In this document: in pieces, positions 1-18,773 of the stretch
Numbering within the stretch: the stretch's first letter is position 1
Layout of the letters: every line of letters starts with the position of its first letter
Assembly: GCF_000238775.2 (NCBI RefSeq)
Contig: NZ_AFEJ02000003.1
Location: forward strand, 1-64,000
DNA from: Acaryochloris sp. CCMEE 5410
GTDB taxonomy: Bacteria > Cyanobacteriota > Cyanobacteriia > Thermosynechococcales > Thermosynechococcaceae
Direction: 5' to 3'
DNA: 64,000 nt
The notes under the pieces: generated by a model
The model's input: the letters and a program-made list of their open reading frames with translations, nothing else
Database searches by the model: none
What the model was told of the DNA's origin: nothing
Made by a program: the position numbers and the translations under genes

Positions 1-3000
1 CCCCCCTCTGACAGGAATCGAAAAAATTGGTTGAACAGATTACGAAGACTCTTATCAAGGGACTGAGGAGACAGAACACTAAGATGCTGCAATACTCAAC
101 TTAACTAAAAGCTGAGAAAAATCGCCAGGTTTCTCATGGAACGGCCATCCTGGACCCCACCCACCATCAAACTCTCATCTAAATAGCGGCTAAATAACGG
201 AAAGCGTAATAACTGATAAAACAGCCCAGAGAAGGCATAGTTAGTGTTGTCCGTTAAATACAGGTGTTGTTGGCCAGCGATCTCGCCCATTTGAGCAAGT
301 CTTCATTCTCCGGCTTGCGCAGTTCTTGGGCAAATAGGGGAACACATTCTTGGTCATAGTATTGCCAAATACCTAGCTGAGCATCTTCAGCCACTTTCTG
401 GCCTGGGGAATTGGGGAATAGAAAGTAAGCGCCCCTATCATTAACCTAATCTCTTCACGATCAAAGAACTGATTCGAGCGCGGTGAATAGACGGGAATAC
501 CATTGGCCTCTAGGAACTGGGCCAGGGCAACAACTTTGTCATTCTTGACCGACCGGAAAAGAAATGCAACTTGGTTCCAGTCAGTAAGATGCCCTTGATT
601 GCGAAGATGAGATAGAAAGTCCAGCATTCTCGATGCCAGTCTTCTGGTGTGGGACCCGCAACCTTAATCACACAAGGGACATCAGTAAAATCATCATCAC
701 GAGCCTCTATTTGCTTATCAAAGCGAAAAATCCTGGCCATCACACTCCAACCTGATCATTCATCCAGTGTTATAGAACGGACAATATCAGGGTGGAACGA
801 TAATTGGTTTGAGCGTACTGTTCACACTGCCAGGAGAACTATTTTTGACTGCAAGATATGCGAATAGTAGCTCCTCTAAGCGATACAGCCCTTGATCATC
901 ATCCCAACAACGCAGATTCGGCTGATCCCAGCTAAAGATGAGCAATTGCTCTTGAACCGTATGGTATCTTGATATCATCACCATGAGATAGGTAATGGTC
1001 TGACGCAGCTTTGCTAACACCTGCGGATGGCTCTTCAGAGTTTTAAAGCTTCATATTGATAGTTGAAAATCCAGAGCGTTTCTTCATCAGCTGCTGTTGG
1101 TAAAGAGTATAGGCATGGCCCAACGCTTTGATCTCACTATGTTCAGCCTGCACTAGAGTTTGAGATCAAGCGCCTCTTCACTGACTACATTCAGCCATCG
1201 CAAAGTGAGCTGTTCTATCCCAAGTTTTCTGTCTGGAGTCAGGTCAATGATATGTTCAATACCAGTAAATTCTGATAGTGCGAAACACGTTGATAGAGAA
1301 TACTGTGATCAACTGATCCATCACGTGAGTTCCGTTGAGACGAGTAACTCTCGTATTCTTCTAGCCAACGTAAACAGATGAGTGGAAGGTGCCTAATACA
1401 TCTCATTGAGATTGAAGCGATATTCAGCTTCAATAAGCGACTCGCATTCGAGTAGTTAGTTCTTGAGCAGCCTTATCCGTGAACGTGACACAAAAGATTT
1501 CAGGTGCAACCTGCCGATGAGTATCAGGTAACAATGCGTTCAACCAGGGTGAAGGTTTCCCAGAACCAGGCCAGCATAATCAAAGTGGCCCATCCGTTTT
1601 CTGATCGCCTCAAGTTGTCGAGGATTCGCTTGACTAGAAAATACGATTTCTGTACAGCCTCAACCATATTACCCCTTGCACTCAGATTCAGCTATTTTGA
1701 ACTATTTATTTACTTCAAAAGCTTGGACACAAATACACAGCTATTCGCCACAAATAGATTATTCACTCTATTTTATCTATTCAGTCAGAAGTACTCATAG
1801 AGGCTTCAGCCTCTGATGGCTCTGAAGTTTATAGCTTTGGGAATGCATCCAGAAAGCGGCTTGGTGATTTCGGATATCCGCGATCGCAACTTGGTAGCCG
1901 GAGAGATACAACGCCTTCTTAGCTTCGTCATTGCCACATAGAAGGCACGCTTTTCTTCCTCTAATTTGGCCCTTTAAATTTCGAAATCGGGGAACTCTCC
2001 TTCTACTGCTCAGCAATGAAACGGTATCAAATTCCAGCCCTTTAGATTGATGCACTGTATGATCGGACCAAATTATCCTCTTCAGACATCATGTCAACAT
2101 TAGTGGAGCAGGCCGAAAGCACCAATAACTCTCTCAAGGCTGTCTCAGAATCAAGAGTGATTGGATCGTGATCGCGAAAGAATTTCACTAACTTCCATAA
2201 ATTTACGATTCGGTGAGGTTCTCGCTGATAATACGCATCTATCCAGCCTCCCTAATGATTTGTCGTAGAATTCAGGAGGGCGAGTGACCGACAATGCACT
2301 TTTCCATCGATTCATGTCTAAGGCCAAGTCATCAAACAAAGGCGCATAGGCTTGAACAACTTGGCAACGTTCTGCAATATCATGCTGCACCAAGGGAATC
2401 AACGAACGAGTAATCGGTTGTAGTTTTCGTATCTTCAAGCGCACTATGAGCCGCCTTTTTGCAGCTCAAAAACTTCGCTAAGGTTTCTAACTTGAAATTT
2501 CTTGTTCCTTTAACAAACCGTCGGCAATCTCGCAGGTGTCAGCATACGGAGGGATAGGAATATCAATATCCAAACGTCGAGCATGAGACCTCAACATTTT
2601 GATATCGAAGCCGACATTATGTCCCACCCACACAGCATCTTGTGCAAAGTCGATAAATCTTCGAACACAACCACTGCGGAACGTCCTTTAAGCGCTAGTC
2701 CTGCTCACTAATGCCATGGATGCGCTCTGATTCTCTATGGGTACTGTATTTTGAGGTAAGCATGAAACACTGTGGCGAAGACTGGCCATTCTCCAACTTA
2801 ATGCAGCTAACTCAATCACCTCATCACTACTAGCCAACAATCCTGTCGTCTCAACATCAAAGACGATAACTGTGCCAGAGGACCATGCCTTCATAACGGC
2901 GCAAATGGGTCTCCATCCTGCAACGTATGACATTGGATAAATCCGTGAGTCTCAAGCCACAAGAGCTGCCAGACGCAATAATTTTGCCCACGGTTGCCGA

Positions 3001-4250
3001 TCCAACCTTCTCGACAAGCGAAGTAATATTCGTCGCAAACTACCAGTATCAATGGGTTGCTTAGGAGTTTTAGATATGAGATCGCATCTTTCACTTCCTG
3101 ACGTCGGAAAATGCAATTCCTCAACCGTGACGCAAGCACCTGTGCTTGGCTAAGACACCTAACACGGCACTCGCTCTTCTATGGGTACGGGCAAGGACTG
3201 CAACTCGGTAATAGGCGAAGTCAGGATCTACAGCGGCTAAGTCCTGAATTCTCTGGGCAATCCATTGGCCCTCGTCTCTTTCTGTATAGCCTTCATAAAC
3301 CTGAATTGGGTACCTAACGGGCGATCTTGGCAGGTTGAGAATGCGTATAACGCTGCAAGAAACAGTCAGCAAAAGCGGAGGCAGCATTAACCAGGATCTG
3401 CGTTGCCCGGTAGTTTTCGTCAAATGATAGGTTGAGGGAGAAGCAACTCTCAAGGACTCCTTTAACTTGATGGGTTCAGATCCTCGCCACTCATAGATGG
3501 TTGATCCAAATCGCCAATCATGGCCAGATTTCTCGAATGTTGGCCAGCATCCATATCACTTCATACTCCGACCAATGAGTATCCTGAACTTCATCGACTT
3601 GAATGAACTCAAACACTTACACCATCGCTCTCTAGCTTCAGGTTCACAGACCAACAGGGCACGCACGTAGTAGACTAATCATCAAATCATCGCCTGCCGT
3701 TGTTGCAATTCATACTGATATTGGCAGGCAATTTTAAAGCCTTTTTCAGTCATCCTCTCATCAATAAGACTCGTAATCCTGAGGCCGTTCTAAGAGCGCT
3801 CCATATTCTCCAGAGGTAAGCTCAGTTTACAGGCTTGGATTTCTGAGTGAGTGGGGAGAGTCTTTACTATCTGAATTCCTGATAGTTCTTTGAGTAGATC
3901 TAATGAATCTTGCTCATCATAAATAACGAATTCCTGGCTTAAACCTATTTTGATGCTTCTTGACGAAGATATGAGCACATAATCCATGAAAGGTTTTGAC
4001 CGTCAATTGGTTCAGTTGATCACAAGCTTTGAGACCATCTTGCATTTGCTGCGCTGCACGGTTTGTAAAAGTCAGGCACAGCAATGTTGGGATGCACTCC
4101 CATTCGGATAGCCTGATCGACTCGTGCTGCTAAACAGAAGTTTTCCCAGTTCCCGCTGGAGCTAAAACTAAACCGGACCATTTGTATGGCCAATAATTTT
4201 TGCTGTTGGGAATTAGGAAAACTCTAGCACTAGCAATCAAGATACGTCAC
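1..4250 (-). pseudogene. Broken UvrD/Rep-type helicase with embedded DnaQ-like 3'-5' exonuclease
   Basis: The minus strand carries pieces of one long protein in several frames. Near 4130-4200 is a degraded Walker A region (GPV...LAPAGTGKT after repairing single-base gaps). At 3790-3987 is an N-terminal lobe fragment (EFVIYDEQDSLDLLKEL). At 3121-3453 comes the segment VPIQVYEGYTERDEGQWIA, and at 2891-3139 the RRQEVKDAISYLKLL motif typical of UvrD. At 2688-2933 is a DEDD exonuclease start (VFDVETTG). The late helicase motif MHQSKGLEFDTV is at 1795-2055, and C-terminal pieces lie at 373-627 and 105-290. Such helicase/exonuclease fusions are known on bacterial plasmids. Many single-base indels and stops make it non-functional as read, or poorly sequenced. 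The left end may run out of the window. Confidence 0.75.
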
Positions 4251-4489
4251 CACACAGGCTATTTCTTCCAAAGGATTCCCTCTAAATTACTTATCAACAA
4301 CTTATTCCATCGAAAAAGTGAAAGAAAGAATAAGTTAATATCTTCCTCAAAAACAAATATTATGTTGCAGTCTTAATGGTCTCCCAAGGATCACTATGGC
4401 CCTAAGTGGTTAATCAAGATGAACACAAAGACTATCTACACCTTCCTACTTCCACAGCTCATAGTGCTAATTGCTAGTACGTTATAGCT
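4251..4489. other. Spacer between divergent ruined genes
   Basis: About 240 bases, AT-rich, between the broken helicase (minus) and the broken recombinase (plus). No open frame or clear promoter stands out. Both flanking genes would be transcribed away from it, so their promoters should lie here. Confidence 0.4.
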
Positions 4490-6400
4490 ATGCGTTTATG
4501 GCTTGAAAAGATCTACAACACTACGTTTTTCCTGCGATCGCATCCCTACAGGACACACCAAAGGACCATGAAATAGCTGACCATTGGACAGCCTGGATGA
4601 AACAGCAATGGAAAACCCATGGGTTGGAAACCTTGAATCAGCAAAAGAATCTGATGGTCGAGGTCCGACAAGCTCTAAAGGAAGAGCTTGCAGAGAATCA
4701 CGTCATTTTGAGCATATGCGCTTCACCACTGACGAGTGGACGGAGATCAACCTTCAGGCAGGCTCTCAACCTCGTGAAGGCAGCATCCATCTCATCACCA
4801 ATCCTGATGCCATCGTTGCTAAGGCATCACAACTGCTCAAGAGCTGCCAATGGGCAAATATCATCGCGGGACTTACAGTCATTACAGGCCGCAGATGCGC
4901 CGAACTGCTCAAAACAGCCACCTTTTCTTACCAATCTCCTTTCAGTCTTTGGTTTACAGGGACACCAAAACTTCATCCAACTAAACCTCATCCTGCTTTC
5001 GAGTTGCCGACTCTGTACCTGCTGAACAGGTCATGGACTCAATTACACAGATCCGAGATCTGTTAGATACAAAGTTTATGGATAACCGGGAGATCAATCG
5101 TCATTATGGAAATGATGTTGCTCTAGCTTGCGATCTCAATTTCGCCGATCTCATCGATTACCAATCAGTAGAGGGAAACTTATACACCCAGCTCTCCAGA
5201 ACCATCTATGCTCGCATTGCAACCCATTGGTATGCCCCTCCCAAATTCTAGACATTGACTTTATGGCCGCCATTCAGGGACACTTCATCATCCTGCAAAC
5301 GAAAGACGTGGAAACGAAGAAATCCCTCGCTAAGAAGCGGCATTATTTTGATTACTTCATTGGCAATGAAATAGGCAAAATCAATAGACAACAAGGGATT
5401 CGTTTGCACGATCCAAATGTAAGTGTGCTAGTAGGCTTACACCCGGATGATGGACCTCCACCCAATCACTCCCGAGTGACCAAGCATCAGATTTTCCAGA
5501 TCTAGAACAAAGGATCGAACCGTCTCCGAACCTCCAAGCAGCCATCCAACACTTCCTTTCTGCACTTGCAACGCTTGAAACTCCTGAAGATATCAGAGAA
5601 TTAGTCAAAGGCGAGATTTCAAATTCAAGCATTACTCTGATTTTTTGGCGTTTATCAAGTGCCATTCAAGCAGCAGTCCACTCTGGTGATTTACCTCTAA
5701 TTGACAGTAAGACTGCATCCTGGAAGCGTTACACCAAAGAAGGATAAGTTACGAGGAACGACAACATTATGCCTTGGTCTTTTTAACGAACCCAGACATA
5801 CCTATTGCAACGCCATCTCCACCTCATCCGGTTTCAACTCCACCTCTAAAAAGCCACACTACACCCACCACCGCGAATCAGAGCTTAGACACCATTTCCC
5901 ATACTCTCTCTGAGTTATGTCAGACTTTGCTCCAACCACAACAGTCTCATGACAATATCGTGCCCAGCCCCTTAGAGCAGAAATAGATACCTTAATCGCT
6001 GCTCTCACTCAGCTATGTCTCGTTTTGCTTCAGCAACAGCAAATTTCTAAGCGCGTATCCAGCCCTTCACCGCCACAAGTTGCACCCCCTATCAAAAGCG
6101 AGGCAGGGGGCGTCTAGATCCCGAAGAAGCAAACGCCAAGATTCACCGCGCCATAGATGCCATTATGGCCTTCAACAACACTCCCAACCGGTCTCATGAG
6201 GAAATGTGGCGCATTGGGATTTCTTCACTTAAAAGGCTGACTCATTCGTCACAATCTGTCATTCAAAGAGTACATAAGCAAAGGGAAAAAGATATTGATG
6301 CCCATCATGAGAAGCATAATTTAGGAAAGTACCATAATCTCCCCATGGACATGCAGGCATAATGATCGATGAGGTTATCAAAGCTCCTGTGAATTCATAA
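4490..6400 (+). pseudogene. Ruined telomere-resolvase (protelomerase)-like recombinase
   Basis: The plus strand holds consecutive pieces of one protein of about 600 residues in at least four frames. They run from ATG 4490 (MRLWLEKIYNTTFF) through DHEIADHWTAWMKQQWKTHG, HMRFTTDEWTEIN, ANIIAGLTVITGRRCAELLK, MDSITQIRDLLDTKFMDN and HYFDYFIGNEIGKINRQQGI to SHEEMWRIGISSLKRLT and HHEKHNLGKYHN. The ITGRR..ELL segment resembles the first catalytic arginine region of tyrosine recombinases. The overall layout recalls the Telomere_res (ResT/TelK) family, which I recall having homologues on cyanobacterial plasmids. That assignment is from memory of the family, not an alignment. A proline-rich linker lies near 5790-5900. 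Single-base indels break it throughout; another plasmid recombinase or replication protein is possible. Confidence 0.5.
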
Positions 6401-6554
6401 ACAGAGGGCAAAGAGCACCTAATGTTTATCTCCAATACCCTCCAGACCTCTAGTACGTTGTTGAGGGCAGATGCGATCTCAGTGAAGCCTCCCATGCTCT
6501 CCACCCCTCATGTCGTAAGGTGGCTTCAGAACCATCATTTCTGGAGCAGCATTC

Positions 6555-6866
6555 ATGGCGACAGATATCCCCAAACCGACCGAAGTCATTCAGCAGATGA
6601 TTGATTTACGGATTCAACTCGCCGAACTAGAAGACCAAATCGAAGCCCTCAAACCGGCTTTCTTTGCAGCCTGTGCAACACAAGGAGACGACAAGTTTGA
6701 GCAAGAAGGGGCAATTATCGCGCGACGACTCACACCTGGCAAATGGATATATCCTAACCACATCACTGTCCAAGAGAGACAGCTCAAAATTCTCAAGGAA
6801 GAGTTTCGGCAAACCCACGAACCCACAGCAGGCAGGGAGATTATTTGGAGCATCAAATTCCTCTAG
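6555..6866 (+). CDS. Small conserved plasmid protein, unknown function
   Basis: An uninterrupted 103-residue frame in otherwise degraded DNA. The N-terminal 35 residues look helical and could form a coiled coil (EVIQQMIDLRIQLAELEDQI); the rest is mixed charged with no cysteine motif beyond a lone CAT. No signal peptide or membrane segment is visible. It follows the ruined recombinase on the same strand and precedes a Phd-type antitoxin. I do not recognise a function. Confidence 0.5.
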   Translation: MATDIPKPTEVIQQMIDLRIQLAELEDQIEALKPAFFAACATQGDDKFEQEGAIIARRLTPGKWIYPNHITVQERQLKILKEEFRQTHEPTAGREIIWSIKFL

Positions 6867-6917
6867 AACCTCCCTTTGATCTATGCGTTTTATCCAATAA
6901 CACTGGAACCAATTGAT

Positions 6918-7179
6918 ATGCCAGACGCCACAATCCTATCCATCACTGAAGCAAGCCAAACGCTCTCCGATCTCGTCGATCAAGTGAACGAGTCTCATGA
7001 ACCGATTATGATCGCAAGCGCGCAAGGCAATGCCGTTTTAGTCAGTGAACAGATTTGGAACGCATTGCAAGAACCCTCTATCTCAACTCCATTCCAGGGG
7101 TGTGGGATTCTATTGAAGTGGGCATCCAGACTCCCTTAAAGACTGCTCCGATACTTTAGCTTGGGCAGATCAATATTGA
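6918..7179 (+). pseudogene. Phd/YefM-type antitoxin, frameshifted
   Basis: The first 55 residues read cleanly from ATG 6918 (ATILSITEASQTLSDLVDQV, then SHEPIMIASAQGNAVLVSE). This is the DNA-binding and dimerisation core of Phd/YefM antitoxins. The family's usual C-terminus (ETLYLNSIPGVWDSIEVG and on to AWADQY) is recovered only after restoring one base near 7070 and one near 7137, both in short A runs. In intact systems it neutralises a RelE/YoeB-like RNase and autoregulates. No toxin frame follows; instead the convergent tniQ end lies 15 bases away. It is an orphan or remnant antitoxin, either way likely inactive as read. Confidence 0.7.
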
Positions 7180-7194
7180 ACGTCGCTGGGCCAA

Positions 7195-7714
7195 TCAAGG
7201 CGATTTTGCCGCTACCGGTAGCTGATCAGAAGCCATTTCTGCAAACGGTAAATGACAGTATTCACACTCACCAACCTGCCAATGCACTGGCAATTGGAAA
7301 GCGTTCCACATCGGGGACAAGCAGACAACAGTTGACGTTGATGACGATCGCAATGCGATATTTCAGCCATTTGCCAAGTCAATTGATGGGATGGAATTTC
7401 GGCATAACATAGCGCACAAAGGCGGGTCTGAAATAAAGCTGGGTCTCCTCTGAAACAGCATTAGGCACAGCCGAGCTACTTCCACCCCGTCAAATCAGAC
7501 AGGATATTGAGCGCAGCAGCATTCGGTATTCGACGACGAGAAGGCGTTTCCCAATAGGCAACCATATAGGATCTAAGTCTCAGCATGGTAGACAGGTGAC
7601 CACTACTCAGACAATTGGCTCGACGAAAGCGGCCCAAAAATGTCCAAAGCTTTCGTCTGGATAGGGTTGAACCTGAAACATCCAAGGTTGTAATGAGGCA
7701 ATCGATGGGGGCAT
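7195..7714 (-). pseudogene. tniQ: Short TniQ of type V-K CAST family, frameshifted
   Basis: TniQ links the target-selection complex to the TnsC filament in Tn7-like transposons. Reading minus from ATG 7714 gives PYPDESFGHFLGRFRRANCL in two frames, then WETPSRRRIPNAAALNILSD and LTGVEVARLCLMLF. It continues with LCALCYAEIPSHQLTWQ, HCDRHQRQLLSACPRCGTP and ECEYCHLPFAEMA, ending at 7195. The order, the length of about 172 residues and the two CxxC-type zinc ribbons match the small TniQ of Cas12k transposons closely (FLGRFRRAN and CPxC..PFAEMA are shared). Two or three single-base indels (near 7657, 7488 and 7288) interrupt it. It follows tnsC directly on the same strand, overlapping slightly. Confidence 0.85.
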
Positions 7715-7739
7715 CACACTCGAACCACAGCGAAGGCCA

Positions 7740-8582
7740 TCATAATGAACAGGATTTGACCACTTGCCTCAGGAGGCTATATTCAATGCGAGTTCGCCCC
7801 ATCAGTAAAGTTTGAATGGCTGCTTCTCGGAGAATTTGATCTAAGAGCCCTATATATCCTTGGGTTTTCTGAAGGAGCAGATCTTGAGCTTTAGCACTGG
7901 TGAGTTTTGAGGGTTCAGGTAGTTGCAGGATATGCTCTTCCAAAGGGCCGTGGTCTCTCGTAACTCTTCTGAATTTAGACGAGGCATATGATAGGTCAAC
8001 AGAAATCGATATTTAACTTGCTCATCCCAGCTCAGTACAGCATTAAGACGATCGGTTCCCACTAACACAACTGATATTTCCAACTTGTCGGAAATATCAC
8101 GGGCCTCAGATATGGCCCGTTCTGTCAGACGTTGCGCTTCATCCAGAATCAGCATCTCAACACCACAGTTGGAGAGAACGTTATACAGCCGTTCTCGTAA
8201 TTCTGGAATCCGGCCCCTGTTGCCCGATATTGGAGGAGTTGCAACAGACCTGTAAAAAGCCACTCACTGACAAGTTTTCTGGACAATGCCAATAGGCGAC
8301 TGGAATGATGGGCGCATAGCCTGGGTTCTGCGTGACGGTATGTTTCAAGTGGTAGGTATCACAGCTAATCGTTTTTCCCGTTCGTGATTCTCCAACCACT
8401 CGGCAGGATTGACGGGTCAAACGCTTGGCATCTAGCCAGGTATGAAATCGCGTCATCTGAGGCAGCTCAAGAATACGGCGTTTACCTAATTGCCTAATTT
8501 GCTCTTCCACATCGATGGGTTCAGCTTGCTCTTCGATAGGGAGCGCTTTAGTGGACGACTCATTCAGATGCTCTGATGCCAT
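7740..8582 (-). pseudogene. tnsC: TnsC-type AAA+ transposition regulator, V-K CAST family, frameshifted
   Basis: AAA+ ATPase that forms filaments on target DNA and recruits the transposase. From ATG 8582 the frame gives LDAKRLTRQSCRVVGESRTG followed by KT (Walker A). Restored downstream frames give LSNCGVEMLILDEAQRLTE (Walker B), ISVVLVGTDRLNAVLSWDEQ (sensor 1) and GYIGLLDQILREAAIQTLL. These match TnsC of Cas12k transposons segment by segment. Indels near 8255, 8215 and 7940, two of them in short homopolymers, split it into four reading pieces. Total length would be about 280 residues, normal for the family. Start codon lies 28 bases after the repaired tnsB stop. Confidence 0.85.
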
Positions 8583-8610
8583 AGGGGGTCACTCCATATG
8601 TTCAGTGGAC

Positions 8611-10277
8611 TTAGAGGCCATGTTCCCGACGTAGTGTGTCGTAGTCATACACCTGAATCTTAGGCAATGGCTGGGTAACAACGGGTTCATCAGGCGCTTC
8701 CTCTTCATTTTCGGTCGATGGTTGAGGGAGCAGGTCAGGTTGCTCTTCAGGCATGGGGAAAGGTTGCTCTAGCAAGTTGTCGATAAACTGGGTGCGATCT
8801 CGTACCTCAGCTAAGACGGATTTATTGGTGACTTCTTCTGAGGCTTGGCGCAGACGACGACTGATAGCTTTCGCTTCGGATAAGACAGACGCTCCGTTTC
8901 TAAGTTTTGAGCGCGGGCTCGGGTCAGAAAAACGTCTCTGGGGCCTTCTTGCCGATAAATCAGCAAGCTGGTGATATCACGCGGGTCATAACGAAGAACG
9001 ACTTGTTGTCCGGCATAGCCTGCTAGATATTCACCTCGATAAATAAGGTTGGAGAAGCGAATATACCCACCTCGATAGACTCGGCGACGATCCTGACGCA
9101 TCAAGAGAAGGTCTAAGTCTCGCTCTTCAATCAACGGGGGTTGGGCAATACGGCCTTCTTCCCAACGGGCTAAACGACTTTGTTTACCTAGACGCGGATC
9201 TGGGAGTTGGTTATACCGATCCACGATGTAGCGCACGAGTAAACGCTCTAGTTGATGGAGGGTCAGACGGGCTTCACTTTCAGCCCGTTTGCGGTGGTTC
9301 TTGAGGCAATTAGTGGTGTAGCCGGGAAGGGTTGAGAAAAACTCACTATTTAAGGTGCCAAAAGGCCGCTCAACGATCCCGCCATCTGAGGGTTTCCGAC
9401 GTAAACATAAAACGATGCCTAAGCTGGCAGCGACTTGATCAATATGATGGGACGTAAAGTCACTGCCGCCATCGGTATAGAGGTATTGGGGGACGCCATA
9501 GGTGCCCCAGAGGTTCATTAGCTCATACTCAGCTCCGTACTGCTTGGGTAAGATGGCGTGGCGCAGGGCCAAGCAGGTGACGGCGGCACTAGGGTAGGAC
9601 AGACCTAAGTGAATGCCCATGATGCACCGGGAATAGGTATCAACAATGGTAGTCAGGGTGGGACGACCCAGGATATCACCTTGCTGATCCACAACTAGGA
9701 TGTCGGCAGGGGTATGGTCGCATTGCCACACCTGATTGCTATATTCGATGTTCAGCTCTATCCCTTTACGAGTGGTGAGCTTTAAGGTTTCTCCATTCCA
9801 ACCAATCGCTCGACGTTTCTTCTTGAGCGATCGTGACTTCACTTCTGGCTCTAGAATACGGTAGACAGTAGCTCGACTGGGATATTCCGACTGACCGAGT
9901 TTTGCAGCCCTACTTTGCACAAGATTAGCAATTTGAGCAGGAGCTGTATGACGCATCCCACGGTTTCCTTTACGGTAGGTTTGCACAATAAACTGATGCC
10001 AATCTTCACTCACTTTGAGTTGCCCTTGATCTGAACGAGACTGACGAATGATTCCTTCTATACCTTGCTCACGGAATTGGTGTATCAGGCGACGCAGACT
10101 ACGATCACTGAGGCTTAACTCTTGAGCGGCCTTTTTTCGCTCTTGGACATATCTCTTGCACCCTTCGTAACTCTTTAACCGTTGCAATACCTCTAGACGG
10201 CGCTGCAAGTGATACGGAAGCGGTTCTGTATTGTTCAGAATCTTCTGTTCTACCCCGTCAGCTAATCCTTCTGACAA
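8611..10277 (-). pseudogene. tnsB: TnsB-type DDE transposase, V-K CAST family, one frameshift
   Basis: The transposase that binds the element ends and joins them to target DNA. A 488-residue frame from a TTG at 10277 contains winged-helix regions (RSLRRLIHQFREQGIEGII) and the retroviral-integrase-fold core. The DDE residues lie in WQCDHT, LYTDGGSDF and GGIVERPF. The C-terminal part (YRGEYLAGYAGQ, DPRDITSLLIYRQ) resembles the TnsB of Cas12k transposons strongly. One base missing near 8884 (LSLSEAKAISRRLR restored) shifts the frame. The shifted frame continues for another 90 residues to a TAA at 8611, ending VYDYDTLREHGL, the tail expected to contact TnsC. The upstream DNA at 10369-10712 carries its putative binding sites. 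Confidence 0.9.
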
Positions 10278-10368
10278 AGGAGTCTCCGATGTTTGTTCTA
10301 TAGTTGGTAAAAGTCAGACACGTCGCACTAAACCACTGACAATTTTCAAACATTTTTAGCCCGAGCAC

Positions 10369-10712
10369 GTCTCACGCTATTTGTCCGAAACTCATTTTAA
10401 GACTACGAGACAAAAGCGGTGAAACCTTCATCGAAAAAGAAATAGATGCAGCTCAGACAAAGTATAAAACGTCTCACGCTATTTGTCCGAAATAGTTAAG
10501 CAAAGTGTCTCACGCTATTTGTCCACAATTCCTATAGCCTTTACCCAGAAATAAATACAGCAAAGTAAAGCTTGATTAAAGAAGAATACTTTTGATAAGA
10601 AATGAACAGATCAATCAATTAAAGATGTCGCTGTAATGCTTACTGTAAAATCTTTTAGCTATATCTGGACAAATAGCGTGAGACGATAGGACAAATAGCG
10701 TGAGACATGACA
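10369..10712 (-). mobile_element. tnsB-proximal transposon end with five 18-bp repeats
   Basis: Five perfect copies of GTCTCACGCTATTTGTCC lie here: plus orientation at 10369-10386, 10471-10488 and 10507-10524, minus orientation at 10667-10684 and 10689-10706. The last two are 22 bases apart. Read inward on the minus strand the element begins TGTCATGTCTCACG at 10712, and TGT...ACA termini are the rule in Tn7-like elements. The following five bases (ctgat, 10713-10717) would be a target duplication if the other end were found. Position, sequence and repetition fit TnsB binding sites in the left end of a V-K-type element. Confidence 0.85.
10525..10666. other. AT-rich interior of transposon end
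   Basis: The stretch between the third and fourth 18-bp repeat has no open frame. It probably is only the spacer of the transposon end. Confidence 0.4.
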
Positions 10713-10983
10713 CTGATACTATTTTATATCACACCTATGAACTTACACCTAAAAATCATATAAGCGATCGCAGATCTACTCTGTGTGACGCAGGATCTCG
10801 GATCGGATCGTGTGATCACAGCGCTCATTCAAAAATCTTCCCCTGTGTTATCGCCTGTGCTCCTTACTGTGTATAGCTTATAGACTTTGTAAAGTTGCGC
10901 TACAATTTCCAATTCTACCCTTGCCTCTTTCTTATACCTATATGCTTCTCGTACCTATTTATTAATTCTCATATCTTAAATAC

Positions 10984-11012
10984 TTGACTTTAGGTGTGAA
11001 TATTGCTATATT
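10984..11012 (+). promoter_or_regulatory. Sigma-70-like promoter
   Basis: TTGACT at 10984-10989 and TATATT at 11007-11012 are separated by 17 bases. This is a near-consensus housekeeping promoter at the head of the rightward small-gene region, just outside the transposon end at 10712. It probably drives the plus-strand plasmid genes that follow. Confidence 0.5.
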
Positions 11013-11471
11013 AGGTACAGGTTGAGAGACAGGCCGTTCCTGCTCCACTCATTACTTCCACAACTAAATAGAACTGCGACGAATGCAGAAGGCTTATAGA
11101 CTGCCGCTCCTAGCCGTACCTATAAGGATTGCACCGCACCTCGAAGGATCAGTAGAGGGTTCTATTACCCCCACAATTTGCACCCTACAAAGGACGATGA
11201 CCGTATGGTACACCCCACGCTTACCCAACGTTCTAAAGCCTGGATCTCGCTCAATAAAAACTAGGCTTCGACCTGGAAATTCCCCTGTTGATGCGTCTCA
11301 TTTATGCGATACCTTGACCCTATTGAACTGATCGAACTGAAAGCAAATATTGATGCCGCTATAGAGTCTAAATTATTTGAAGCTACTACAGAATAAGGAT
11401 TATAGCTCTTTTCTTTCTTATGTAATTTGAACTTATTTTTACATAAGAAAGTCATACGGAGGCCCGCCGCA
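11013..11471 (+). other. Poorly coding stretch with a 30-residue frame
   Basis: No recognisable gene. A short plus frame at 11304-11396 (MRYLDPIELIELKANIDAAI...) has acidic, helical composition and ends just before an inverted AT-rich sequence near 11405-11450 (TTTCTTATGTAA...TTACATAAGAAA) that could form a hairpin terminator. The rest shows only shadows. Confidence 0.3.
11423..11453 (+). terminator. Hairpin, possible terminator
   Basis: TTTCTTATGTAA and TTACATAAGAAA form a 12-bp perfect inverted repeat with a short loop after the 30-residue frame. There is no long T tract, so intrinsic termination is plausible but not assured; it also resembles a generic palindromic repeat. Confidence 0.35.
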
Positions 11472-11603
11472 ATGCCCAAACCCTCTGACTACCGCTTGCT
11501 CTTACTCCTGGTCTTGGTGATCATTGTGCTCGACATTTGTTCACAGGCCAGATCACAGCCTCAAAACCATTTCCCTTCAGTCATACCTTCCACGCTGTTC
11601 TAA
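11472..11603 (+). CDS. Small membrane peptide, unknown
   Basis: A 43-residue frame from ATG 11472 to TAA 11601 with one strongly hydrophobic segment (LLLLLVLVIIVLDICSQA). It starts about 10 bases after a GGAGG motif (11458-11462), a good ribosome binding site. It could be a single-pass membrane or secreted peptide. No family recognised. Confidence 0.4.
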   Translation: MPKPSDYRLLLLLVLVIIVLDICSQARSQPQNHFPSVIPSTLF

Positions 11604-11948
11604 TCCATCACTAGCCATCTGTTCTTTGCGATCGCAATCGGAGGCCATCATGACAGCCACTCAAATACTGCCCAGGAACAACTTCTCGACAGACCGCTAG
11701 GATTTGGTGAAAGTCCTAGCGCTATTGCCATATTCTGCAATCGAGCTAACACTCATACTTGGTATACCCTCGATTCTAATTCCCAACCCAAGAAATCCCT
11801 CATCCTGCTCTCACTGGCTTCCTCAAAGCCTGGAGTTCATCAAAGGGGAATACAAAAGGAAACCCACCTGTAAATCAGAGTCAAGCTTCAGGCGCATCGT
11901 CCCTGCACCCTGGAAGCTGGTGCTGAGTCCGTCTTCGCTAAAGGCTTA
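11604..11948 (+). other. Degenerate small coding remnant
   Basis: After a GGAGG (11640) an ATG at 11650 opens a 16-codon frame (MTATQILPRNNFSTDR) ending in TAG. Beyond it, pieces such as ANTHTWYTLDSNSQPKK and SPHPALTGFLKAWSS appear in another frame. This looks like a small plasmid gene with indels. I do not recognise the family. Confidence 0.3.
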
Positions 11949-11951
11949 TTG

Positions 11952-12158
11952 ATGGCGATCGCGAATCTCAATACGAAACAGCTCCTTCAGCCCATCACCA
12001 TCGAGGCCGTCCCTTCAGATCAAGATGACAAGGTGCTGTTCTGCCGGGTCTGGTTGGGCACTCAAAAGGTCTTCCAACGGTGGGATGAAACAACCCATTG
12101 GCGCGATGTTGCCAAGAAAGCTATCGATAATGTCGCTCCCCTGCAACCGCAAGGTTGA
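11952..12158 (+). CDS. Small conserved plasmid protein, unknown
   Basis: About 68 residues (MAIANLNTKQLLQPITIEAV...), ending APLQPQG. The sequence is soluble with a beta-rich middle (DDKVLFCRVWLGTQKVFQRW). It overlaps a HIP1 site near its start. No signal peptide, motif or recognised domain; it resembles small orphan proteins common on cyanobacterial plasmids. Confidence 0.45.
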   Translation: MAIANLNTKQLLQPITIEAVPSDQDDKVLFCRVWLGTQKVFQRWDETTHWRDVAKKAIDNVAPLQPQG

Positions 12159-12240
12159 CTTTGAATGCTGAGATCGCCCCCAAACGGATGGGGGTGATCA
12201 CTAACCGATGATAAGACCACGCCACAATGAGGGCTGCATC

Positions 12241-12500
12241 ATGCAAATGTATAAACTCACTTTCCCAACCCAAAACCTCTACTCAACTCCAATGGATTGC
12301 CAATGTGCCCACGGCCAACAAGAGGAATACGGGGGAGAAGTTCTACCCTGTTTTGATTGCTTCTTGACGGATGGCAGCACCCGAGAGGATGGATCGGTCG
12401 CCATTCTCTCCCGTGAGTGGCTGACTATGACTGAACTGGAGAAATATAATTCAACGCGACAACATACCCAAGAAGTTTGGGAGCGGGTAACGCCTGCTGT
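12241..12500 (+). CDS. Cysteine-containing small protein A, unknown
   Basis: From ATG 12241 (MQMYKLTFPTQNLYSTPMDC) the frame contains CQCAHG and CFDCFLTDG followed by LSREWLTMTELEKYN. The CxxC pairs suggest a small metal-binding fold. The coding character fades near 12500, where a second related protein starts in another frame. The open frame formally runs to 12681 but its tail overlaps protein B and is probably out of frame. A and B may be one gene split by a frameshift. Confidence 0.4.
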
Positions 12501-12512
12501 TGCCAATACCCC

Positions 12513-12785
12513 ATGTATCAGGTGGTTAAACATGATGTGCCGTTCAATGTCATGGATCGACTGGCTGCTGAACAATTCCTGGAGCAGGATGAGGATGACC
12601 TGTGCTCGATGGAGCCCTGTCAAGATTGCATTTGGACATATACCGAAACCTGCCCTGACTCGGATTTTGATCCCTATATGACTGCCCGCTCCCGTGAATG
12701 GCTCTCTGCTAATCAATTAAACGAGCGGAATACACACCTAGAGTTCCTTGGACAAGCCTGGGTAATCGCTTCCCAATACTTCTAA
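12513..12785 (+). CDS. Cysteine-containing small protein B, related to A
   Basis: From ATG 12513 (MYQVVKHDVPFNVMDRLAAE) the frame carries SMEPCQDCIW and ARSREWLSANQLNERN, the same CxDC...SREWL arrangement as in protein A just upstream. It ends at 12785. Either a tandem duplication or the second half of a single frameshifted gene with two repeats. Function unknown. Confidence 0.4.
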   Translation: MYQVVKHDVPFNVMDRLAAEQFLEQDEDDLCSMEPCQDCIWTYTETCPDSDFDPYMTARSREWLSANQLNERNTHLEFLGQAWVIASQYF

Positions 12786-12843
12786 CTGTTCTGTAACTGC
12801 GATCGCAGATGCTCATCGTTGGGGATACTACCTGCGATCGCAA

Positions 12844-12889
12844 GGACAAATTGCGTGAGACAAAAGGACAAATTGCGTGAGACACGACA
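12844..12889 (-). mobile_element. Second transposon end of the same family
   Basis: Two copies of GGACAAATTGCGTGAGAC at 12844-12861 and 12866-12883 differ at one position from the 18-bp repeats at 10369-10706, and have the same 22-base spacing. They are followed by ACGACA ending at 12889, matching ATGACA at the 10712 end. The orientation is the same as the 10712 end, so the two cannot be opposite ends of one element. It is a relic or the end of a neighbouring element. Confidence 0.75.
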
Positions 12890-13092
12890 GCAACAATAGC
12901 CTATCTCCACAATGTTGAGAATGGAGTCAATAGCTATATCCCCGCGAGCTGCCCCCAGTCCCTCGGCCAACCCATCGCTGGAATACCTATAAATTCGTTG
13001 TTTTTCCTAAAGGCAGTACTTGTCTCTTAAAACAGCTATTGAGTATAGTTCTCAGCTACTCCTAACGACACATTCATAGAGGGTATTTCACC
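12890..13092. other. Spacer upstream of sigma factor gene
   Basis: No open frame of note. A TTGTCTC...-type sequence near 13019 and TATAGT near 13039 could serve as a weak promoter for the sigma factor gene at 13093; a GAGGG sits 13 bases before its ATG. Confidence 0.3.
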
Positions 13093-13811
13093 ATGACCTA
13101 TACCACTCCTTTCCCAACTCATCAGGGAAAACAACTCTCTGATCGACGATATCTAACCACTGATGAACAATTAGCCTTAGTCTCTCAAGTTCAGGCCCGT
13201 ACCCTACTCCTCAAACAGAAGAAAGCAGGGCTAACCCTCGAAGAAACAAGGATTTGCCTTCGCGGTGAACGCGCACTCAAAGCACTCGTGGAGGGACATC
13301 ACAAAATGATTTGGTTGATGATCCATCGCTTCAACTTTTCCGATCGTCTGACCACAGATGAGCTGTTCCAAATCGGCATCATCACCATTGAAAAGGCCGC
13401 TAACTACTACAACCCCACTCGGCCTGGACGATATAGAAGATTCTCAAGCTGGGTCTTTTCCTCCTCAGACAGAAGTTCCGCAACCTCTTCAAGCAAGAGC
13501 TGGGATATGAGCACAAACGCAAAACACTGTATGGGCAGCTCAGGATGAATGCTCCTCTATGCAATCATGACACCCCTCAAGACTTCGCCATCCTCGAAGA
13601 GTTGAAGCAACTGCTCAAGCCCCTCTCCAAGACGCTATCGTTCAAAAAGCAAATCCATGCATTCCGGGCCTTTTACCTGGACGGTGAAACCACTCAGCAG
13701 ATTGCCCTCAGCCTGGAACTGACGGTTGGCAGTGTCAAAGCCTATCTCTACGAAGCCCGAAAACAACTCAGGGGCAATCCCCAGATCCAAGAATGGGTAA
13801 GGCTGTACTGA
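13093..13811 (+). pseudogene. Sigma-70 family factor, one frameshift
   Basis: The first frame (13093-13548) gives LTTDEQLALVSQVQARTLLL and a region-2-like core (ALVEGHHKMIWLMIHRF, DELFQIGIITIEKAANYYNP). After restoring one base near 13464 (SFLRQKFRNLFKQELGYEHK) the downstream frame to 13811 supplies region 4 (FRAFYLDGETTQQIALSLEL, SVKAYLYEARKQLRG), a helix-turn-helix. About 240 residues in total, typical for a small plasmid-borne group 3 or orphan sigma factor. The single indel separates the core-binding from the -35-binding half. Confidence 0.7.
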
Positions 13812-13955
13812 ACTTTCCTTTGGCCAGGGGAAAACCCTATCCGCCTAGCTGGAATGCTAACCCCTGTGCGATCACAAACCCCTACTGCCGGGGATATAGC
13901 CTGCGATCGCAAAACCTCTTTCTACAAATCAATATCCCAATCAAAGAGACGATCT

Positions 13956-14105
13956 ATGAAAAGATTCACTCTCTCTTTCTCCCGTGTCCTTCAACGACTC
14001 AAGGACCATTTCAAGCTGCAACAATGCGCTTCCTGTGGACTGTGGTACAGAACACTGGAGCTTGACCAAGATGGCATCTGCCACGACTGTGGGCGCTATC
14101 TCTGA
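13956..14105 (+). CDS. 49-residue zinc-ribbon-like protein
   Basis: ATG 13956 to TGA 14105. The C-terminal half has CASCGLWYR and CHDCGRYL, a four-cysteine CxxC...CxxC ribbon; the N-terminal 20 residues are basic and helical. AGAG precedes the start. It probably binds zinc and nucleic acid or a protein. The longer overlapping frames in this region lack this motif and are likely shadows. Confidence 0.5.
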   Translation: MKRFTLSFSRVLQRLKDHFKLQQCASCGLWYRTLELDQDGICHDCGRYL

Positions 14106-14155
14106 TGAGGCAATACCCCTCGTATAGCCAATAATTACGCCTTGGAGGGCTCACC

Positions 14156-14335
14156 ATGACTCCTTTCGATTATGAACTTGCCAAGGGCAATTTAATCAGC
14201 GCTATCAATCTCGCGATCCAGGATGCAAACCAAGCTCTTGACGATGCCGAAAACGCGATCACTAACCTCAATAAACGACAACTACATATCCATCATCTCG
14301 CTCAAAACGCTCTCAACAAGTTTCAAAGACTGTAA
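14156..14335 (+). CDS. 59-residue helical protein, unknown
   Basis: ATG 14156 follows GGAGG (14144-14148) at a good distance. The sequence (MTPFDYELAKGNLISAINLA ... ALDDAENAITNLNKRQLHIH) looks like one or two long amphipathic helices. No cysteine, signal or membrane segment. It lies between the zinc-ribbon gene and the DUF6876-like gene, likely one transcript. Confidence 0.45.
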   Translation: MTPFDYELAKGNLISAINLAIQDANQALDDAENAITNLNKRQLHIHHLAQNALNKFQRL

Positions 14336-14394
14336 ACGAAGCACCTTACTTAACTGCTTCAACCCTCTCGCTACAAATTTCAGAGGAAACATTT

Positions 14395-14697
14395 ATGCTA
14401 ACTGCTTCTGAACTGCTTGCTGATCTTGATCATTACTATTGCACTACACAACATTACAAACACCCCTTTGGCCTTCTCTATACCGATGGCGTTAAGGCAC
14501 TGGCTATGGGTGGGGAATGCTACTGGCTCATCGATGCGATCGCGAGTTATCAACCTGGAAAAGTCATTCGCGCTAATCCCACGCTCTTAGAGTTCCAGCG
14601 CTGGATGTTAACGGTCAATCCTGACAAAAGTGCGCTCTTGGCTTGCTACGAAGATAGTCCCGAAACCCATAGAACAAAAAGGGTTGTGACTTTGTAG
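14395..14697 (+). CDS. DUF6876-like protein
   Basis: A clean 100-residue frame (HPFGLLYTDGVKALAMGGEC, YWLIDAIASYQPGKVIRA). The YTDGV..LA...YWL.D.IASYQ pattern is what I associate with DUF6876, a family of small proteins on plasmids and phages with no known function. GAGG precedes the ATG. It is the last of the small plasmid genes. Confidence 0.6.
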   Translation: MLTASELLADLDHYYCTTQHYKHPFGLLYTDGVKALAMGGECYWLIDAIASYQPGKVIRANPTLLEFQRWMLTVNPDKSALLACYEDSPETHRTKRVVTL

Positions 14698-15052: not shown

Positions 15053-18000
15053 CTAAGGTTGATTCGATTGTAGTGCTTTTCGTTGCTTCCCCTGAGATCT
15101 TCTTTGCATGAAGCCCTTGATGAACTCCATAGCATCATCCACAAACGTATAGACAATCGGCACCACAATCAGCGTTAGCAGGGTCGAAATCACCAACCCT
15201 CCCAAAATTACCGTTGCAATGGATGAATAGGCATCTGAGCCAATTTCAGGAAAGAAGGCCAGCCGCACTACAACAATTAGTGTAGTTAGTGTAGTCATCA
15301 CAATTGCTTTTAGCCGTACTGGTCCAGCCTGTGAAATCGCCTCTTCTCTGGAAATACCTTCCCTTCGCTTGGTTAAAATCAGCTCCAATAGCAAAATTGC
15401 AGCTGACATAGACAGGCCCGAAAGAATGATAATCCCCAGAATTGAAACCGTGGACAGTGTTTGATTGGCGAGAATCAACCCACCAAAGACACCCACGAGT
15501 TGCAACGGTACCGATAACATCATCACCAAGGGGTGAATAAAGGAATTGAACTGGATGACCAGGATGATATAGATCAGCATTAGTGAAATGGCTAGACCAT
15601 TGAGCAGGCGTGTGAACTCAGTCATCATGTCGGTCATATCGCCCATGGAGTCAATCCCATAGCCAGGTGGAATCTCTAACTCAGCTCCAGCGTGCATGGC
15701 GATCGCCATGCTCAAATCCATTGAAGCAGGACCCTGGCGGCGGTAGTAGCCATTGACATAAACCACCCGCTTGCTGTTGACATGTTCAATCAATGTTGGT
15801 CCTTGACGATAGTCGAGCTGCACGAGCGTATTCAGGGGAACCTGTTGACCGTTGGGTGTTGTCAGGTAGGTACTTTCTAAATCTTGGACTGTTCCCCGAT
15901 CTACTTCGTCATAGCGCACCAAAATTGAATTCTGCCTTAGATTTGGTCGGTTGTAAGAACGCTGGGTCATGCCGCCATTGAGGGCAAATCGGGCTTGGGT
16001 GGCAATGGCTTCTACATTCAAGCCCAACTCTTGGGCACGGCGGCGATCAATATTTAGCATTAGCTCTGGCTGTGTCATGGCTGCACTAGTGTGAGCCATC
16101 ATTAGCCCCGGCGTCTCTTCAGCAATCCGCAATACATCGTTCGCCAGCGGGTGGAGGATATCGAGATCATCACCATAGATCGCCAGCTGAACGGGGGCGG
16201 CGGAGGTGGCCATGACATCCACACCCATTTCTTTGAGGGCCAACCGTCGGATACCGGAGATCGTTGCCATTGCCTCGGCGTGAACCTCATCCATCACTTG
16301 CCAGATGTCACGCTCACGATTCAGCTTCAGCGTCACGGTGAGCGAGGCGGTATTAGCATTGCCCATACTGTAGCCCGTAAAGTAAGTGCTATTCCGGGTA
16401 AGTTCAAAGCCTACTTGGGAGGAGACTTTTTCCACCTCCGGCTGTTGAAGCAACAATGCTTCTAGCTGGGCAGTACTGGTATCGGTTTTAGCGAAGGAAC
16501 TGCCTGCCTCCATTTCTAGTGTGGCCATAAACTGCCCAGAATCGCCTAAGGGCATCATTTCCTGAGGTACGAGCGGATAGAGCGAGATGGCCAAAACCAC
16601 CGTAGAAGCGATGACGGCCAAAGTCACTTCTCGGTTGCGAAGCGTTAGCTGCAAGAGCCATCTGTAACTGCGCTCTAATTGTTGGAAACTATAGCTAATG
16701 GGAGTCAGTAATTTTTGCAGCCAAGTTTTGCGGTGGGTTGGAGACCAGGTGCGATAAAAGAATGCCGCCAGCAGTGGTACCAGCGTGACCGACACTAGGA
16801 CCGACGCCACAAATGCAAAAATCATCGGCCACACAAGCCCCACAAACATGAGTCCTGTTAGACCGCCAGACAGCATGCTCGGCAGCAACGCAGCCACCAT
16901 CACACAACTGGCTGCGACACTGGCTAAAAAGACTTCGCCAGTTCCCCGAATTGCCGCTGCCAGTGGACGGAACCCCTGACGGATCTTTTGCTCAATGGAA
17001 TCAATCACAATGATGGAGTCATCCACCAGTTTCCCAATCGCCATCATCATGCCAATCAACGTCGAAGAGTTGAGGGACATCTGCATGGGACCAAAGGGCA
17101 ACGTTGAAAGCGCCAGCGACATGGGAATAGAAATCATGATCAGTGCTGTGGCGCGGAAGTCCTGTAGGAAGAGTAAAATCACTCCCCCGGCTAGGAGAAC
17201 ACTGATGAGCAGTTCCTTAAACGTGCTCTGCAAAATGATATTGACCAGGAAGGAGTTGTCATAAGCTTCTTGAAATTCCAATCCTGGATATTCCTGTTTA
17301 ATCTTCTCTACTTCTGCTCGCACCCGCTTAATCACCGCTGGAGAGCTAGAGTCCGGCTTTTGAATAATATTCACAGCCAGGGCCGCTTGGCTGTTGTAGC
17401 GGTAACTGCTGCGGCGTTCTTCAAAGGTATCCTCAACTGTCGCCACATCTCGAAGATAGACCACTTGGCCATCGCGCTCTAGGAGTGGATAGTCTAGCAG
17501 CGCCGCTGCATTTTGCACCCGCTCATCAGTGCGCACGAGAATTTCTGTATCCTCCCGCGTTAGGATGCCAGAGCCTTGGCTCAAATTATTCCGATCCAAG
17601 GCATCGCGCACCTCCACAATAGACAGCCCATAGGCTCCCAGCTTTTGGCGATCGACAATCACTTGTAGCTGTCGTCGGTAACCACCAAAGATCGAGACGG
17701 CCTGAACATGGTCCACTTGGGTGAGCCGATCCACTAGGGTATTATCGGCAAACTCCCGCAACTGCACCGGGTCCCATTGATCCCCCGTCAGGGCCAAGGT
17801 CAACACGGGGCGGTTTAAAGGGTCAATGGGCAACACCCAGTAGGACCGGGCGTTGAGTCCTTGTAGTTCAGTATCTCCCTCCGCTGCATTCATAAGGCTT
17901 TGGACAGATTGAACAGCCCGATTAATGTTGCCGCCCCAGCCAAACTGGATCGTTATCAGGGATAGATTTTGCTGGGAGGTTGAGCGCACAAACCGGACAT

Positions 18001-18232
18001 CTTCCAATACCGTCATGCGCTGTTCCAAGGGCTTGGTAATATAGGCTTCCACCTCCTCCGGTGACGAGCCAGGGGCTTGAGTAATGACGGCCACCAGCGG
18101 ACTTTCCACGTAGGGCATCATCCTCACGGGCAACCCCAGCAACACCAATAGTGACAGGATCAAGATACCGATATAGAGTGCAGTTACTAGAACTGGATGC
18201 TTGATAGACCAGCGGGTGAGAAATTCTTTCAT
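15053..18232 (-). CDS. RND efflux permease (heavy-metal/drug, CusA/AcrB-like)
   Basis: A 1059-residue inner-membrane proton-driven pump of the RND superfamily. The first membrane helix is at residues 13-35. The large periplasmic loop includes ESPLVAVITQAPGSSPEEVE. Transmembrane segment 4 carries the proton-relay pair in IGKLVDDSIIVID near residue 405. A second half repeats the fold after about residue 530. Family length is 1000-1070. The DD pair and operon place it among pumps exporting metals or small toxic compounds; the exact substrate is not readable. It is the last gene of the operon adaptor (20552) - YtkA lipoprotein - permease, with short gaps. A putative response-regulator box and a MerR-type palindrome lie upstream of the operon. 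Confidence 0.9.
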   Translation of the reverse strand: MKEFLTRWSIKHPVLVTALYIGILILSLLVLLGLPVRMMPYVESPLVAVITQAPGSSPEEVEAYITKPLEQRMTVLEDVRFVRSTSQQNLSLITIQFGWGGNINRAVQSVQSLMNAAEGDTELQGLNARSYWVLPIDPLNRPVLTLALTGDQWDPVQLREFADNTLVDRLTQVDHVQAVSIFGGYRRQLQVIVDRQKLGAYGLSIVEVRDALDRNNLSQGSGILTREDTEILVRTDERVQNAAALLDYPLLERDGQVVYLRDVATVEDTFEERRSSYRYNSQAALAVNIIQKPDSSSPAVIKRVRAEVEKIKQEYPGLEFQEAYDNSFLVNIILQSTFKELLISVLLAGGVILLFLQDFRATALIMISIPMSLALSTLPFGPMQMSLNSSTLIGMMMAIGKLVDDSIIVIDSIEQKIRQGFRPLAAAIRGTGEVFLASVAASCVMVAALLPSMLSGGLTGLMFVGLVWPMIFAFVASVLVSVTLVPLLAAFFYRTWSPTHRKTWLQKLLTPISYSFQQLERSYRWLLQLTLRNREVTLAVIASTVVLAISLYPLVPQEMMPLGDSGQFMATLEMEAGSSFAKTDTSTAQLEALLLQQPEVEKVSSQVGFELTRNSTYFTGYSMGNANTASLTVTLKLNRERDIWQVMDEVHAEAMATISGIRRLALKEMGVDVMATSAAPVQLAIYGDDLDILHPLANDVLRIAEETPGLMMAHTSAAMTQPELMLNIDRRRAQELGLNVEAIATQARFALNGGMTQRSYNRPNLRQNSILVRYDEVDRGTVQDLESTYLTTPNGQQVPLNTLVQLDYRQGPTLIEHVNSKRVVYVNGYYRRQGPASMDLSMAIAMHAGAELEIPPGYGIDSMGDMTDMMTEFTRLLNGLAISLMLIYIILVIQFNSFIHPLVMMLSVPLQLVGVFGGLILANQTLSTVSILGIIILSGLSMSAAILLLELILTKRREGISREEAISQAGPVRLKAIVMTTLTTLIVVVRLAFFPEIGSDAYSSIATVILGGLVISTLLTLIVVPIVYTFVDDAMEFIKGFMQRRSQGKQRKALQSNQP

Positions 18233-18253
18233 CGGGCTTACGCCTTCATTGAC

Positions 18254-18709
18254 CTACTTCACCTCAAAGGCTAGGGTTGCAGGTTCAGCATCCTTGGCCT
18301 TTACCTGCACTGTCCAAGGACCAGCCATCCCAAAGTTGGTTTTAATTTTGAACTCCTGGGCTTTATCTCCGGGTTCCACAATGGCCAGAGAGGTCATATC
18401 CGCTTCGCCTTCCATGGGCATTGAGACTTGGACAGAGACATCCTCGGGCGTGAGATTCTCCTTCTCAACGCGAACCACCAGTTCGGCATCGCCCATGGGC
18501 ACTTCGGCGGATTTAGGACTCACTAAATGAATATCCTTAGATGTGTTGCTGGGGTCCATGCCTTCCTTGTCACCATCAGGCTTGGATTTTGCCTGCTCTG
18601 TGGGAGCTTCTGCGCTGTCCGATGTCTCTGCAGCTTGTTCTCCTGATTGGGCACTACAGGAAAATAGAAAGGTGCTCACAAGAGCGATCGCCAAAAAGAT
18701 TTTCTTCAT
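18254..18709 (-). CDS. YtkA/FixH-like domain lipoprotein
   Basis: About 151 residues from ATG 18709, chosen because GAGGA lies 7 bases upstream; a GTG at 18721 is the alternative. The N-terminus is a lipoprotein signal (LVSTFLFSC). An acidic serine/alanine-rich linker follows, then a beta-sandwich domain (LVSPKSAEVPMGDAELVV ... KIKTNFGMAGPWTVQVK). The domain resembles YtkA-like (PF13115) modules. It is also a clear paralogue of the last 95 residues of the adaptor encoded next door (KTHFGMKGDWVIKAQVKDAE). It may work as an extra periplasmic partner or metal-binding module of the efflux system. Confidence 0.75.
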   Translation of the reverse strand: MKKIFLAIALVSTFLFSCSAQSGEQAAETSDSAEAPTEQAKSKPDGDKEGMDPSNTSKDIHLVSPKSAEVPMGDAELVVRVEKENLTPEDVSVQVSMPMEGEADMTSLAIVEPGDKAQEFKIKTNFGMAGPWTVQVKAKDAEPATLAFEVK

Positions 18710-18773
18710 ATCAGTCCTCACAATGAATGATGTTGATATTGTTTGAGGTCAATTCAATCCCTCGAAAGGCGTT

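Follow-up and report, generated by a model that had tools for sequence, protein, structure and literature searches.

A five-copy repeat near the start of a contig from Acaryochloris sp. CCMEE 5410 very probably contains the sole end of a telomeric transposon of Tn7-like type (TnsB-TnsC-TniQ), an element whose other boundary is a hairpin telomere and which inserts at the centre of telomeres and caps the tips of replicons. Telomeric transposons reportedly combine one transposon end with a telomere and reside on linear replicons of cyanobacteria and Streptomyces. The present element fits this class with its single end and telomere boundary, and is regarded as a new member, with no new class claimed. 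Telomeric transposons are cited as a distinct class in PMC12669027, and work on them is also cited in PMC13228271 (Hsieh et al., Science 2025, 387:eadp1973).

The window, which is the whole stretch analysed, comprises 64,000 nucleotides (C3:1-64000) of an 8.09 Mb assembly. The 18-mer GTCTCACGCTATTTGTCC occurs exactly at 10369-10386, 10471-10488 and 10507-10524 on the plus strand and at 10667-10684 and 10689-10706 on the minus strand. The five identical copies in two orientations described by a sequence-only reading are therefore present as three plus and two minus sites, and the 22 nt that it gave between the outer two holds when measured start to start. When up to 3 mismatches were allowed, the window held 7 matches against 0.05 expected from shuffles. 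Further copies of the site are present elsewhere in the genome. The additional window matches form a second pair that was overlooked in the earlier reading (12844-12861 and 12866-12883, 1 mismatch per site), which has its terminus at 12889 and is oriented like the outer pair of the first end.

That first end finishes at 10712, where the sequence reads GTGAGACATGACA followed by CTGAT, a terminus of the TGT...ACA type. A second copy of the element, on contig C1, is essentially identical in alignment up to ATGACA/CTGAT and divergent from there, which bears out the boundary that had been predicted precisely at this position. The end proper, consisting of two 18-mer sites and the terminus ATGACA (10667..10712, minus strand), is also supported by relatives, to whose ends the terminus can be aligned gap-free. 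As the sequence-only reading had proposed, it lies upstream of tnsB, which is found just inside it. The end is exact and single. The telomeric transposon itself occupies 1..10712 of the window on the minus strand, with its distal part lost at the contig end; the copies in C1 and C3 match it as far as 10712 and continue to the ends of their contigs, the one in C1 reaching about 4.4 kb beyond the distal limit of the window copy.

Both Tn7-like transposase genes and a telomere resolvase are encoded within the element. The tnsB gene (8611..10277, minus strand; rve, Mu-transpos_C) consists of a 488-aa frame at 8811-10277 followed by a shifted 54-aa C-terminal piece at 8611-8775, and may start at a GTG slightly upstream of the annotated frame. 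It is followed by tnsC/tniB (7740..8582, minus strand; PF05621), which is broken into two fragments by assembly indels, and by tniQ (approximately 7195..7720, minus strand), which is whole in the C1 copy (175 aa; PF06527, E 9.4e-9). Further genes are a Phd/YefM-type antitoxin (6876..7139, plus strand; PF02604) and the indel-broken telomere resolvase (approximately 4560..6362, plus strand), which has a match at C3:4800-5018 and is intact in the C1 copy (614 aa; PF16684, E 2.8e-24), with similarity to TelA structures. A cargo gene for a UvrD-type helicase with an exonuclease domain follows (approximately 1795..4250, minus strand; C1 copy 6256-8772); the element holds two UvrD-type helicase/nucleases, and its C1 copy additionally encodes an N6/N4 methylase and a ResIII helicase. 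Two more telomere resolvase genes with long open frames are located away from contig ends, at C1:329535-330089 (713 aa) and C3:312348-312836 (670 aa).

The broken frames are complementary between copies: the window has a near-whole tnsB but a split resolvase, and C1 an intact resolvase but a split tnsB. Over 10.9 kb, the C1 and window copies differ by 38 substitutions and 176 gap positions. Most of these indels look like assembly noise, since the self-overlapping ends of contig C4 show similar gaps (132 gap positions in 14.9 kb, against 17 substitutions), and this accounts for the broken reading frames in the element copies.

Three copies of the element are present in the genome, and every one faces inward and runs to a contig end. 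C1 also holds the five-site set, and an inverted set lies close to the opposite end of C3. The C3 termini form an inverted repeat of 11.1 kb (window 3548-14656 against C3:405169-416239, L024), unlike the ends of C4 and C5, which overlap directly, as in circles. The C3 repeat has its inner limit within an open reading frame near 14652, with no transposon end there; the repeat therefore arose by terminal duplication and not by insertion itself. A viral-contig search and a search for near plasmid matches found nothing. The telomere is unassembled in this genome, its contigs stopping inside the element, and its form is suggested by relatives and by flank similarity: it would be a palindrome whose arms are of the ATACTATT type, at a distance of at least about 15 kb from the end at 10712. 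Substrates centred on AATAGTATCTGATACTATT are predicted to be turned into hairpin products by the 614-aa resolvase.

Relatives in which the assembly reaches further supply the second boundary. TnsB relatives were gathered at 79 loci and placed in a TnsB tree, in which the window falls in a 16-row clade (100/100). In all 14 of the closest relatives (L034-L047), a contig end lies at most 4.6 kb downstream of tnsB (for instance, 1292 in L035 and 3071 in L037); small contigs could inflate this proximity, but on the upstream side these loci extend for as much as 65 and 195 kb. Perfect palindromes of 72 bp and 42 bp terminate the contigs of L038 and L037, respectively, while the contigs of L034 and L036 stop at or just past half a palindrome. 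The L036 contig ends in GTATCTGATACTATT, and its telomere has an odd centre (GTATCTGATAC), with no perfect even palindrome. The second boundary is thus a telomere in L034, L036, L037 and L038. The short elements of L034, L036 and L038 lack the resolvase. The L036 contig (RFGN01000779.1), which belongs by its title to a gammaproteobacterial MAG, contains a member of the cyanobacterial subclade and is likely mis-binned.

The sequence-only reading had anticipated a mirror-image counterpart on the left with CTGAT after it. None was found in scans of the window, the contig ends or the whole assembly, and in the three telomere-reaching relatives L034, L036 and L038 the stretch from the TnsB-side end to the telomere holds no further end-like site. 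An ordinary two-ended Tn7-like transposon, with its right end absent from a fragmented assembly and with contig breaks caused by its repeated copies, would fit the observations that contigs do break in the repeated element and that its distal part is absent from the assembly. However, relatives that reach the telomere palindrome have no second end, and the copies are found at replicon or contig ends, facing inward, in 3 of 3 cases in this genome and 4 of 4 in G303, a near-complete genome drawn from an evenly sampled set of 390 genomes. With no inverted second end found, the two-ended reading is not supported and is considered quite improbable. The three copies here, the inverted C3 termini and the four G303 ends place the element, as far as sequence can tell, at the ends of linear replicons in an inward-facing position, in keeping with a telomeric transposon.

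The DNA just outside the end indicates where insertion takes place. In L038, L036 and L034, this DNA is homologous to the telomere half over 200, 188 and 88 bp, respectively, and the L035 flank is homologous to the L037 end of the same genome over about 170 bp. For L038 and the L035/L037 pair, the homology begins 2 nt before the palindrome centre, an offset that fits a 5-bp stagger. Judging from these alignments, the elements of the relatives were inserted into an older telomere, at the centre of its palindrome. In G303, the element is found at all four ends of contigs of 0.50 Mb and 5.46 Mb, which end short of the telomere, and next to every copy lies AATTCCAAAAAAC, identical to the initial 13 nt of the telomere half in L038. 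Members outside the subclade described below, such as that of PCC 7822, have flanks that resemble ordinary genes.

For the present element, insertion at telomere centres is indicated by flank similarity. The flanks at C3 10713 (CTGATACTATTTTATATCACACCTA), C1 15274 (TAAATACTATTGCTTATGACACCTA) and C1 16786 (TTAATACTATTTATCTCATACCTA) are alike, and this mutual likeness provides a clue to the insertion target. The segment at 10713..10962, which starts with CTGATACTATT, is read as an old telomere half with subtelomeric DNA and is related to both C1 flanks, to the flank of G082:C813 and to the L036 contig end. The G082:C813 flank (CTGATACTATTCTATATTCCACCTA) is of the same type as that of the window (alignment score 35, shuffle maximum 27). 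The CTGAT beyond 10712, predicted in the sequence-only reading to be a target duplication, probably marks the old telomere's centre. Homology between the G303 plasmid and chromosome copies runs on for about 0.8 kb past the end; such continuation, there and at the two C3 ends of this genome, may be explained by a shared older telomere or by an exchanged terminus. A third flank type (AGAAAGAAATGCATTACC) was observed outside the end in L217 (G082:C566) and L219 (G030:C114), and is repeated outside both stacked ends of G030.

Ends stacked in series occur in the window (10712 and 12889) and in C1 (15273 and 16785), as well as in G303 C1 and G030:C114. The two segments between stacked ends in this genome, 10713-12889 (minus strand) and C1:15274-16785, have a telomere half at the start and a terminal site pair at the finish, with different bodies and no tnsB found in either. 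They may be older mini-elements that were capped by the present element. In the window, the pair closing the segment (12844..12889, minus strand; terminus ACGACA) has site matches at this inner end only, and its flank (GCAACAATAG) is not of the telomere type. These pair-only segments, read as capped older mini-elements, suggest that an end needs no more than the terminal pair. From the window segment, a 200-bp sequence (10958-11162) has four more copies in C3 with 82-86% identity (C3:295293, 299205, 305903 and 404836), three of them within 20 kb of a second resolvase gene. Genes of the AcrB/HlyD efflux type (window 15053-20552) follow inward of the old ends at a distance of a few kb.

The idea of a five-repeat transposon end therefore stands in part. 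The terminal pair is the end, and the three inverted sites (10369..10524, plus strand) are probably regulatory, because the two older mini-elements of the same genome carry the pair only. In a fully supported subclade of seven rows in the TnsB tree (the window and L034-L039), the inner sites point opposite to the terminal pair at every intact end, and so they do in loci of G303, G082 and G030; in other clade members and in type V-K ends, inner and terminal sites share one orientation. The inner spacings of 36 and 102 are common to the window subclade and the non-inverted L042, in identical order. A block inversion of the triple would reverse this order and is thus ruled out. Since the outer pair is in register with other ends, the inner sites are the likelier set to have flipped, with some uncertainty because the sites are partly palindromic.

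The inner triple might alternatively be a second, outward-facing or relic end that provides the missing partner, both ends working side by side. Its opposite orientation is conserved in the telomere-located subclade, and TTTCATG, close to the true TGTCATG terminus, precedes some of the innermost sites. Yet the inner side has no TGT terminus, and the TTTCATG of L035 and L036, where a possible tnsB start lies directly against the innermost site, is the ATGAAA of that start on the tnsB strand. The pair-only segments also appear to have acted as ends, and the 36 and 102 spacings keep the order of the non-inverted L042. The outward-facing or relic end is accordingly judged a distinctly unlikely explanation. 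The triple as a dead right end was rejected as the main reading on the overlap of TTTCATG with a possible tnsB start in some relatives and on the retained spacing order. In its simplest reading, the triple is probably an operator through which TnsB represses its own gene.

The element resembles type V-K CASTs of the ShCAST kind, which likewise combine TnsB, TnsC and TniQ without a recognised TnsA and have, near tnsB, an end that terminates in TGT and contains several TnsB sites. It could thus be a V-K CAST whose Cas12k part lies past the contig end; its TnsB, TnsC and short TniQ are of the V-K kind, and the window end aligns in register with V-K ends. However, no Cas12k was found at the 14 closest loci, and the genome gave no match with one query in a search run without a positive control. 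As regards a tracrRNA and a CRISPR array, no Rfam hit was obtained in the window, L023 or L024, the distal part of the element lying outside the assembly. The TnsB clade is separate (100/100) from Cas12k-bearing rows, the second end is replaced by a telomere, and the inner sites are inverted. The CAST identity was rejected on the missing Cas12k match and Rfam hit, and is regarded as extremely unlikely.

A telomeric transposon of this kind could move as follows. Replication through the hairpin would yield an inverted dimer in which two elements flank a telomere palindrome and carry their ends on the outside. This dimer would supply TnsB with the two ends needed. Through a cut staggered by about 5 bp, TnsB, TnsC and TniQ would then insert it at the centre of a further replicated telomere, TniQ/TnsC perhaps recognising the telomere via hairpin or cruciform DNA. 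By cutting and closing the new central telomere, the resolvase would give the element to both sister molecules. In the relatives, with insertion at the telomere centre, the new element caps the molecule and leaves the old telomere half just outside its end, so that repeated rounds of insertion would leave stacked ends. The two terminal sites are the end proper, and the inverted inner three near the tnsB start would most likely serve TnsB self-repression.

Other linear replicons share parts of this arrangement. The linear plasmid Cy782202 of Gloeothece PCC 7822 carries a protelomerase gene and inward-facing tniQ-tniB-tnsB within 16 kb of the record end, but its end flank is gene-like, with no telomere half, and it lies outside the inverted-site subclade. 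Gloeocapsa PCC 7428 has a linear plasmid (pGLO7428.02) with a protelomerase gene, a terminal palindrome (TACATTGTTATATTGGAATTCCAATATAACAATGTA) and a terminal tnsB remnant, although this tnsB copy is without its end. An RND efflux gene lies directly inside the remnant, comparable to the efflux genes of the window. In Drosophila, the telomeric retrotransposons HeT-A and TART are added successively at chromosome tips. They use reverse transcription, in contrast to the DDE transposase and resolvase here, and the machinery is unrelated. Within the present genome, one perfect 24-bp palindrome with telomere-like arms (AATAGTATCAATATTGATACTATT; C1:785230-785253, L171), the sole palindrome of that pattern, was rejected as a telomere. 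It is probably an operator, because by sequence reading it lies just upstream of a hicA-like gene.

Taken further, one TnsB subclade may couple an inner triple flipped in place with insertion at the exact centre of hairpin-telomere palindromes, in a telomere-on-telomere capping that fossilises old telomeres in series and renews bacterial chromosome ends; this broader proposal is tentative and somewhat less probable than an even chance. The telomeric-transposon reading itself would tie a simple repeat pattern to the way in which bacterial chromosomes can be linear with ever-changing tips. A transposase would move telomeres, with the telomere itself as the target, and past rounds would be legible as stacked ends. 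The anatomy provides short, testable DNA parts, namely the two-site end, the telomere target and the candidate operator. The reading would also explain why searches for a second end of such elements fail.
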